Shown: positions 15,449 to 50,320 of the stretch, piece after piece
Layout: each line of letters begins with the position of its first letter
How positions within the stretch are numbered: position 1 is the first letter of the stretch
From: Priestia megaterium NBRC 15308 = ATCC 14581
GTDB taxonomy: Bacteria > Bacillota > Bacilli > Bacillales > Bacillaceae_H
Direction: 5' to 3'
DNA length: 64,000 nucleotides
Assembly: GCF_000832985.1 (NCBI RefSeq)
Contig: NZ_CP009920.1
Coordinates: 558,001-622,000, forward strand
The notes under the pieces: model-generated
The model's database searches: none
What the model was told of the DNA's origin: nothing
The model's input: only the letters and a program-made list of their open reading frames with translations
Translations under genes and position numbers: made by a program

Positions 15449-15477
15449 GTCCTTCAAATAATATACCCATGGACATG

Positions 15478-15592
15478 AAAAAAGAATGACAAACGAGTTG
15501 TCATTCTCTCTCCTACACATGGCAAGCTTTTAGTTTTTAGTCACAAGGAAATGAAACATCTAATCCCACTTTTTACAGTGTCGGTTGTTTCT
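15478..15592 (-). ncRNA. predicted sigma-G dependent small RNA (copy 1)
   Basis: Reading leftward from the promoter at 15599-15628, the predicted RNA is ~115 nt and has no convincing reading frame. The first ~40 nt fold into a closing stem GAAACA/TGTTTC (15591-15586 with 15558-15553) around an inner hairpin CACT/AGTG (15570-15567 and 15580-15577). The 3' end is a textbook terminator, AGAATGACAA/TTGTCATTCT plus six T (15506-15478). The same promoter and fold recur upstream of the second SASP gene at 35161-35271, with a different 3' hairpin. CsfG, the known sigma-F/G RNA of spore-formers, is an obvious relative to test. I infer this RNA; nothing here proves expression. Confidence 0.5.
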
Positions 15593-15598
15593 AAAAAT

Positions 15599-15628
15599 TA
15601 GTATGTCATCCTAACAAGAAAATATACA
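15599..15628 (-). promoter_or_regulatory. sigma-G type promoter, reads away from SASP gene
   Basis: On the minus strand: TGTATA (15628-15623), 17-base spacer, CATACTA (15605-15599). This is a full match to the forespore consensus TGNATA-N17/18-CATACTA. It lies back to back with the forward SASP promoter. Confidence 0.6.
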
Positions 15629-15642
15629 TCCATTATTTACCA

Positions 15643-15672
15643 CGAATACATCTCTTCCACAATAGGAAACTT
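15643..15672 (+). promoter_or_regulatory. forward sigma-G-like promoter of SASP gene
   Basis: CGAATA at 15643, a 17-base spacer, then GAAACTT at 15666. The paralogous copy has TGTATA in the same place and the same GAAACTT. The predicted start is about 20 bases before the ribosome site, as usual for SASP genes. Confidence 0.4.
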
Positions 15673-15697
15673 AAGAAAAACAAGGAGGTGACACAAC

Positions 15698-15907
15698 ATG
15701 GCAAACAACAACAGTGGTAGCCGTAACGAATTATTAGTAAACGGTGCTGAACAAGCAATCGATCAAATGAAATATGAAATCGCTAGCGAATTTGGTGTAA
15801 ACCTTGGTGCTGATACAACTGCACGTGCAAACGGATCAGTAGGTGGCGAAATCACAAAACGTCTTGTACAAATGGCTGAGCAACAACTTGGCGGCGGACG
15901 TTTCTAA
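15698..15907 (+). CDS. alpha/beta-type small acid-soluble spore protein
   Basis: The 69-residue product has the SASP signature [20 protein letters not shown] (the germination protease GPR site, cut between Glu and Ile/Phe) and the C-terminal [21 protein letters not shown]. It coats forespore DNA, protects it from UV and heat, and is degraded for amino acids at germination. An AAGGAGGTG site precedes ATG. The gene at 35377 encodes an almost identical protein (Met to Leu at one site), and the upstream ~90 bases are also conserved, so this is a segmental duplicate. Several SASP alleles exist in this genus, so no exact symbol is given. Confidence 0.95.
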
Positions 15908-15990: not shown

Positions 15991-16149
15991 ATGCAGCAAC
16001 ATCAATCAGCTAAAGAAAATGCGGGTTTTACTGAGAAACCAGCAGCTTCTGCAACAAATGCACAAAAAGTAAAACAAGAAATCCAAAGAGACGTAAATGA
16101 AGGACAAGGCGCAATGACTTCTCGAGAAGCAGGCGCAATGCGCGATTAA
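15991..16149 (+). CDS. small hydrophilic protein, 52 aa
   Basis: ATG at 15991 follows AAGGAAGGAG. The product is Gln/Ala/Glu-rich, with no hydrophobic segment: MQQHQSAKENAGFTEK ... QEIQRDVNEGQGAMTSREAG, ending AMRD. The composition resembles small spore proteins, and it lies 29 bases after the SASP terminator, so it may be expressed by read-through in the forespore. The family is not recognised. Confidence 0.55.
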   Translation: MQQHQSAKENAGFTEKPAASATNAQKVKQEIQRDVNEGQGAMTSREAGAMRD

Positions 16150-35160: not shown

Positions 35161-35271
35161 GTCCCTAAAGAGGATTGCAATAGCAATTGCAACCCTCTTC
35201 TCACATGGCAACTTTTAGATAACAAGGAAATGAAACATCTAATCCCACTTTTTACAGTGTCGGTTGTTTCT
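35161..35271 (-). ncRNA. predicted sigma-G dependent small RNA (copy 2)
   Basis: This is the paralogue of 15478-15592. The ~45-nt 5' part is almost identical, with the same GAAACA/TGTTTC closing stem (35270-35265 with 35237-35232) and CACT/AGTG inner hairpin. The 3' end is a different, long hairpin (AAGAGG...TTGCAAT stem, loop TGCT) with a poor T-run. The stretch UUCCUUGU in the RNA is complementary to ACAAGGA of the SASP ribosome site (7 bases; may be chance). Inference only. Confidence 0.45.
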
Positions 35272-35277
35272 AAAAAT

Positions 35278-35307
35278 TAGTATGTCATTCTGATAAGGAA
35301 ATAAACA
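35278..35307 (-). promoter_or_regulatory. sigma-G type promoter (copy 2)
   Basis: On the minus strand: TGTTTA (35307-35302), 17-base spacer, CATACTA (35284-35278). The geometry is the same as copy 1 and points away from the SASP gene. Confidence 0.55.
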
Positions 35308-35376
35308 CCCATCATTTACCATGTATATACTTCTTGGCCCCTAGGAAACTTAAGAAAAACAAGGAGGTGACACAAC

Positions 35377-35586
35377 ATGGCAAACAACAACAGTGGTAGC
35401 CGTAACGAATTATTAGTAAACGGTGCTGAACAAGCAATCGATCAAATGAAATATGAAATCGCTAGCGAATTTGGTGTAAACCTTGGTGCTGATACAACTG
35501 CACGTGCAAATGGATCAGTAGGTGGCGAAATTACAAAGCGTCTTGTGCAATTAGCTGAGCAACAACTTGGCGGCGGACGTTTCTAA
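35377..35586 (+). CDS. alpha/beta-type small acid-soluble spore protein (paralogue)
   Basis: The 69-residue product differs from the SASP at 15698 by a Met to Leu change (LVQLAEQQ). It keeps the GPR protease site [11 protein letters not shown] and the DNA-binding [13 protein letters not shown]. Upstream ~160 bases and the AAGGAGGTG site are also conserved. A strong terminator follows. The near-identity at DNA level points to a recent duplication or gene conversion. Confidence 0.95.
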
Positions 35587-45160: not shown

Positions 45161-45458
45161 AATTTCTCCTCCTTTCCTTTTGTTAATAGATAAAGTTCCC
45201 AACGTTATTAGTTACTATTCGTTAAGTAAATATATCTTTTGAAACTACTCACTAATACCCAAAATAAAGAAGCCTTTGAAATTAGTATGAATATATTTCT
45301 TGTCTATTAAGCAAACTAGCCAAGATGCAATGAAGCATCACTCATGAAATCTAATTACATCATAGAAAAAACTACCTTCTCCCTAATGGTATGCTCCCCT
45401 TATAGTAGACAAGTAAAAGAAAGCAACCTATTCTGTCTACTATGGAGGGGATTTTTTT

Positions 45459-50057: not shown

Positions 50058-50071
50058 GTTTCAGCTTCTTC

Positions 50072-50174
50072 CTTATCTCTAAGAGCGATACACTCTTAAG
50101 GATTTGGCACCATTCTGTCATAGACAGCGGTTGCCGGGTTTCACAGGGCCAGTCCCTCCACCTCTCTTGATAAG
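50072..50174 (-). ncRNA. SAM-I (S-box) riboswitch
   Basis: On the minus strand the aptamer runs from CTTATCAAGAGAGGTGGAGG through GACTGGCCC, GAAACCCGGCAACC and GGTGCCAAATCC to the closing GATAAG. All conserved S-box blocks and the P1 stem (CTTATC/GATAAG) are visible. SAM binding should favour the terminator at 50022 and switch yuiH off when SAM is plentiful. Confidence 0.95.
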
Positions 50175-50320
50175 GAAACAAATTGTATTTGTTTTATGTA
50201 ATAAAGTCAGTATTAAGCTTTTTGTCATAATTGTCAATATTATTTTTCTTTTCCGCCAAAAAACTTTAAAAACAGATAGGGTTATAAGGTTTTAGTCTAC
50301 TAAAATACCATGTAAATCCT

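Follow-up and report, generated by a model that had tools for sequence, protein, structure and literature searches.

Priestia carries a family of small RNAs whose middle portion holds two conserved segments complementary to the translation starts of alpha/beta-SASP mRNAs. In these searches, the family is limited to Priestia and is partly plasmid-borne. Sequence analysis gives good support to the RNA gene and to its complementarity to alpha/beta-SASP starts, and we think it rather probable, on the same grounds, that the family consists of forespore base-pairing RNAs that block translation of alpha/beta-SASP mRNAs. Alpha/beta-SASPs cover the DNA of the spore and account for much of its resistance, and an RNA of this kind would probably control the amount of these SASP proteins made in the forming spore.

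Two members lie in the window, as we call the whole 64,000-nucleotide stretch of DNA that was analysed. A sequence-only reading had described two blocks with promoters, a fold and 3′ hairpins, and all of these were found where it had placed them. The first copy and its SASP neighbour comprise the following features:

15599..15628, minus strand: sigma-G-like promoter of RNA copy 1, from sequence (TGTATA at 15628-15623, 17-base spacer, CATACTA at 15605-15599)
15477..15592, minus strand: predicted small RNA copy 1, about 116 nt (covariance model and structure counts)
15553..15591, minus strand: 5′ hairpin, GAAACA/TGTTTC with CACT/AGTG inside (folds, pair counts)
15543..15554, minus strand: segment 1, UCAUUUCCUUGU, complement of the SASP Shine-Dalgarno region
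15515..15525, minus strand: segment 2, UUGCCAUGUGU, complement of SASP start codons, with the core UUGCCAUGU at 15525-15517
15477..15513, minus strand: intrinsic terminator (fold, pair counts, sequence)
15643..15673, plus strand: putative SASP promoter, CGAATA, 18-base spacer, AAACTTA (sequence reading; the -10 match is weak)
15680..15704, plus strand: pairing sites on the neighbouring SASP mRNA, ACAAGGAGGTGA at 15680-15691 and ACATGGCAA at 15696-15704
15698..15907, plus strand: alpha/beta-type SASP gene, accessory type

The 5′ end of copy 1 near 15592 is placed from the position of the -10 box, the first two bases of segment 1 overlap the foot of the 5′ hairpin, and the putative promoter of the SASP gene at 15698 falls outside the body of the RNA. 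The covariance model gives this copy 137.1 bits, copy 1 being itself a training sequence. Just 3′ of the SASP gene there is a 52-residue open frame with a ribosome site (15991-16149, plus strand), which may, at a guess, encode another small spore protein. The second copy and its neighbour comprise:

35278..35307, minus strand: sigma-G-like promoter of RNA copy 2 (TGTTTA at 35307-35302, 17-base spacer, CATACTA at 35284-35278)
35166..35271, minus strand: predicted small RNA copy 2 (covariance model, 102 bits, itself a training sequence)
35232..35270, minus strand: 5′ hairpin, stems as in copy 1
35222..35233, minus strand: segment 1
35203..35211, minus strand: segment 2, UUGCCAUGU
35166..35200, minus strand: 3′ hairpin with a weak T-run, unrelated in sequence to the hairpin of copy 1
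35359..35383, plus strand: pairing sites on the second SASP mRNA, ACAAGGAGGTGA at 35359-35370 and ACATGGCAA at 35375-35383
35377..35586, plus strand: second alpha/beta-type SASP gene, accessory type

The blocks are 92% identical over 107 bases and have unrelated 3′ hairpins, in keeping with the earlier description of a terminator in copy 1, which is clear at 15513-15477, and of an unrelated hairpin in copy 2, which at 35200-35166 has only a weak T-run. In the minimum-energy fold of copy 2 alone, the outer stem of the 5′ hairpin is paired differently.

The promoters are called sigma-G-like by the sigma-G promoter consensus. A strict promoter pattern occurs three times in the 64-kb window as compared with a mean of 0.77 in 30 Markov controls; two of the occurrences are at these blocks and, since the copies are paralogues, are not independent. 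The third is at 45313 on the minus strand (TGCTTA, 18-base spacer, CATACTA). Elsewhere in the window, a SAM riboswitch at 50070-50176 (minus strand, 100.3 bits) is the sole match above an Rfam gathering threshold. Promoter spacing is 16-18 bases in 29 of the 33 tabulated family members, while four of the 33, a diverged subclass in which our script misplaced the -10 box, read TGAATA-17-GATAATA by eye.

From 5′ to 3′, the RNA consists of a hairpin, a central part whose length varies and which holds the two conserved segments, and a terminator stem with compensatory changes, and by its sequence the family possesses its own promoter and intrinsic terminator. The view of these blocks as a structured RNA family, divergent from SASP genes and under a forespore-type promoter, is supported by sequence, as is that of a conserved 5′ segment joined to variable 3′ hairpins, the terminator stem changing by compensatory substitutions. 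Covariation in the stems, which had been proposed as a check, is clear in 31 distinct members and is not clear in the 12 training members. In the larger set, the alignment of which had been fitted to the model structure, 96.3% of pair cells are standard, 121 cells are changed on both sides versus 34.8 in shuffles (0 of 500 as high), and the covariation score is 0.485 versus 0.200 (0 of 500). Both-side changes affect 15 pairs: 13 of the 16 in the terminator, two in the outer 5′ helix and none in the inner hairpin. The 5′ hairpin is mostly invariant, its few compensated changes occurring in diverged members. In the 12 training members, both-side pair changes were equalled in 114 of 500 shuffles and the covariation score in 18 of 500; as family members are related, conservation among them is not fully independent. 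Taken by itself, copy 1 does not fold unusually well against dinucleotide shuffles (z -1.64, 15 of 200 as good), and five other members gave z values of -2.86 to -4.83. The two segments are unpaired in some minimum-energy folds and partly paired in others, and their mean unpaired probability in four RNAs (0.36-0.54 for segment 1, 0.57-0.83 for segment 2) corresponds to a moderate predicted accessibility.

Both of the copies described earlier exist, but they belong to a larger family rather than forming a pair. The covariance model, built from 12 members, yields 18 matches at 43 bits or more in five of ten Priestia genomes, 12 of the 18 being training members; there are five in the window's genome and seven, three, two and one in the other carriers, and more are found on plasmids. 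A class at 428744 and 4691388 of the window's contig is found at 49.2 bits, although the model was trained without it. The ten genomes contain 70 SASP places, with the RNA lying within 400 bases upstream, divergently, at 18 of them and at none of the other 52. Ten weaker matches (below 40 bits) were inspected and showed no adjoining SASP, no segment 2 and only a terminator-like hairpin. In a table of 57 distinct parsable SASP starts, which omits some places as duplicates or unparsed, the carriers are the genes that have ACAAGGAGGTGA(C or T)ACAACATGG as their start and the genes that encode proteins ending in QSGTSR; strict segment patterns missed diverged copies that the model found. A segment-2-like string occurs alone upstream of one core SASP gene (L026), without segment 1 and without a model match.

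Outside Priestia, a model search of 299 genomes of the order, run with stricter filters that lose weak matches and could let diverged members escape, returned a single match at E up to 5e-4 (37.6 bits, genome G044), with neither a SASP nor segment 2 in its locus. A two-segment pattern sought in 397 genomes matched in 11, namely the five carriers and six outside Priestia; at the one site in each of these six and on two viral contigs, none of the eight loci has a model match at the pattern, and one (L269) has a weak match away from it. Two further pattern sites in the window's genome, C6:1632678-1632717 and C6:2797846-2797870, recur in all five carriers, and the locus tested for each site (L249 and L259, respectively) had no match to the model. 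The phage search gave no family match. An equivalent direct repeat was no more frequent than in the control upstream of 80 SASP genes from other genera and species; two 11-base matches lie about 300-350 bases upstream and, by eye, in a coding frame.

In the plasmid collection, 31 records match the block, all of them from Priestia, and 28 of the matches lie over an annotated SASP gene; loci from 16 of the 31 records, plus two places of a second class, were taken for study. One member stands apart from any SASP gene: on a plasmid of P. megaterium H2 (NZ_CP071467.1, 2466-2581, locus L236) the promoter, hairpin, both segments and the RNA's own terminator adjoin a carbohydrate kinase gene, with no SASP frame within the 5,080-base locus and no SASP gene within 2.4 kb. 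Another plasmid (NZ_CP137805.1, locus L247) bears a tandem pair of accessory SASP genes, and the divergent RNAs that accompany the two genes belong to different classes. At two plasmid loci (L237 and L238, near 2495-2571), decayed RNA copies lie beside spxA without segment 2, terminator or SASP frame.

The middle of the RNA, with its two segments complementary to SASP translation starts, was missing from the sequence-only reading, which had noted a seven-base match to the SASP ribosome site as possibly due to chance. That match turns out to be part of a 12-base-pair complementarity, accompanied by a match of 9-11 bases between segment 2 and the start codon. Segment 1 forms 12 of 12 pairs with ACAAGGAGGUGA, G-U allowed, in 29 of the 31 distinct members, the other two losing an end pair only, and pairs fully with the SASP-C-like version ACGAGGAGAUGA in 26 of 31; two further plasmid members carry UCAUCUCCUUGU, which by eye also pairs 12/12. 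This segment resembles a generic anti-Shine-Dalgarno sequence. Segment 2 forms nine of nine pairs with ACAUGGCAA in 28 of 31 members, the exceptions being one member without it (L017), one internal mismatch and one terminal mismatch. Its tenth base, read in 30 members, is G in 23, which fits CACATGG of two core genes, T in four, which fits AACATGG of the neighbours, and A in three. The linker varies between members, with lengths of 10, 11, 14, 15, 16 and 17 bases.

On the SASP-A-like mRNA the two sites abut, ACAAGGAGGUGAAA and then ACACAUGGCAA, together spanning 25 bases. The segments stand in the RNA in the same 5′-3′ order as their sites in the mRNA, i.e. permuted relative to a simple antisense, and a single continuous duplex is therefore impossible; binding would have to proceed by one site at a time, through a looped-back linker, or with two RNA molecules. 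The same segment order would result from a tandem SASP start that has decayed, which may be the origin of the segments.

Potential targets were ranked against a background of 381 gene starts taken from 400 kb plus the window. Summed segment energies were -35.3 for the SASP-A-like start (L029), -34.5 for the SASP-C-like start (L028), -29.9 for the neighbours and -24.6 for the MSNNN class, with the best background start at -24.4. The other three core SASP starts (L032, L022 and L026) fall within background at -23.0, -22.1 and -19.2, with 1, 2 and 25 of the 381 background starts as strong, respectively. The SASP-A-like and SASP-C-like genes, so named for their resemblance to those proteins, are core genes unlinked to the RNA copies. 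Shuffled versions of segment 1 did as well in 1 of 3000 cases for each of these two genes and in 6 of 3000 for the neighbour; for segment 2 the counts were 0 of 3000 for each and 13 of 3000. An energy scan along the RNA drops sharply solely at segments 1 and 2. The composite pattern AGGAGRTGA-N(0-12)-ACATGGCAA has 23 matches in the five whole carrier genomes, every one of them at an alpha/beta-SASP start, and its reversed control has none in the same genomes.

Full-length duplex energies discriminate targets poorly and cofolding only partly, both less well than segment sums. With the full-length duplex of copy 1, background starts were equal or better in 84 of 381 cases for the neighbour, 7 for the SASP-A-like and 16 for the SASP-C-like mRNA. 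On cofolding, the corresponding numbers for the neighbour and the SASP-A-like mRNA, out of 381, were 38 and 1 with copy 1, 0 and 5 with the RNA of L011, 13 and 0 with that of L024, and 6 and 13 with that of L236. Some Priestia genomes that lack the RNA have the SASP-A-like start sequence as well, and there is accordingly no sign of target-side coevolution.

In the role that we propose, sigma-G RNA polymerase, judging by the promoter, would probably transcribe the RNA in the forespore, divergently from the accessory SASP gene. The predicted transcript has a hairpin at its 5′ end and a Rho-independent terminator at its 3′ end, and the region between them is largely unpaired in several of the folds. 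As suggested by complementarity, segment 1 would anneal to the Shine-Dalgarno region of alpha/beta-SASP mRNAs and segment 2 to their start codon, and such pairing would block ribosome binding and thereby lower or time SASP synthesis. The SASP-A-like and SASP-C-like core genes, being unlinked to the RNA, would be reached in trans and are the strongest predicted targets, and the mRNAs of the neighbouring accessory genes would be weaker partners, still above background on segment sums. A weak point of the proposed role is that a SASP would be repressed during its own production. A broader reading, which we regard as speculative and rather doubtful, is that of plasmid-mobile cassettes that replace the DNA-packaging proteins of the spore: each would supply an accessory SASP together with an RNA silencing two core SASP mRNAs more than that of its own neighbour, the forespore RNA being a circularly permuted antisense that pairs, by 14 + 11 pairs, with an unbroken stretch of 25 bases at the SASP-A-like start. 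The accessory genes would in part evade this silencing because the six bases that separate their ribosome site from the start codon are altered.

If the block were conserved as promoter DNA belonging to the divergent SASP gene, for instance as a regulator site, and gave no functional RNA, its location at SASP genes in 18 of 18 genomic and 28 of 31 plasmid matches would be expected. However, the RNA body lies upstream of the putative SASP promoter, the terminator stems covary, both conserved segments are complementary to SASP starts, and the H2 plasmid locus retains promoter, segments and terminator without a SASP gene; the latter copy also answers the earlier concern that the block might be conserved only as SASP promoter DNA, and we find this explanation quite improbable. 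It is unlikely, though less strikingly so, that a forespore small RNA is made which does not act on SASP mRNAs and owes its complementarity to a decayed tandem SASP start. The plus strand at copy 1 reads ATGGCAA, gap, ACAAGGA, an order that would be the product of deletion between two tandem SASP starts, and tandem accessory SASP genes do exist (L247). Nevertheless, diverged members retain segments 1 and 2 despite differences in hairpin, linker and terminator, and five of the six types of segment 1 substitution keep pairing through G-U or G-C, which is modest evidence, weak when taken alone, as all are transitions. A cis-antisense RNA was rejected as well, since transcription begins upstream of the SASP gene and leads away from it.

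That the transcript encodes a small peptide has very little probability: several members have an open frame that begins with MFHFLV, VFHFLV or similar, but the varying linker lengths break it, it runs into the terminator where it stays open, and there is neither a common end nor a common start. The sequence-only reading had regarded CsfG as the main alternative identity, an assignment that our analysis does not support. CsfG has a similar forespore-type promoter and lies at ylbG-ylbH, whereas the present block adjoins SASP genes instead, and the conserved segments are absent from the ylbG locus of this genome (3,210 bases). Rfam searches of the window and of eight loci gave no gathering match for the RNA and no relevant weak match, a result that bears on CsfG if Rfam includes a model of it. 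Moreover, the present family was seen only in Priestia, while CsfG is, according to the title of its paper, highly conserved in endospore formers. The family is set apart from CsfG by location and distribution, and we give almost no credence to its being CsfG or another known sporulation RNA. The reading that we prefer remains that of a base-pairing RNA acting on SASP mRNAs.

With a compact RNA family that has explicit target sites, post-transcriptional control would become accessible to study in the packaging of spore DNA. That the family occurs on plasmids alongside additional SASP genes would link mobile elements with spore chromatin, and the permuted two-segment design would constitute an unusual antisense geometry. 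The ssp genes of B. subtilis are reported to be among the most highly translated in late sporulation (PMC11339384). Literature searches, with most subscription papers outside their reach, found neither a description of the present family nor an RNA described as controlling alpha/beta-SASP translation, the nearest case being Bvs196 acting on sspN-tlp.

Bvs196 of Bacillus velezensis is a 294-nt forespore sRNA under sigma-F/sigma-G; in vitro it binds sspN-tlp mRNA through a short pairing whose site lies in the intergenic region of that operon (PMC9147052). Bvs196 and the present family are both forespore RNAs (by prediction in our case) with a SASP-class mRNA as partner, but its target is a minor SASP operon, as opposed to the alpha/beta-SASP mRNAs proposed here, and the present RNAs, about 100-125 nt long, multicopy, alpha/beta-SASP-linked and plasmid-borne, are set apart from it by description. 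CsfG, for which no mRNA targets are known according to the same paper (PMC9147052) and which is named in passing among regulators of sporulation mRNAs in another (PMC12456014), resembles our family in being a small non-coding RNA with a forespore-type promoter. SR1 of B. subtilis, an sRNA, works by base pairing to inhibit translation initiation, much as is proposed here, and has a role in sporulation (kinA); it differs in having other targets and another gene context, and in also encoding a small protein. OxyS on fhlA and S. aureus RNAIII make two separate contacts with one mRNA, the ribosome site included, by way of hairpin loops, whereas the present family would use two linker segments in permuted order and is linked to paralogues of its predicted targets.
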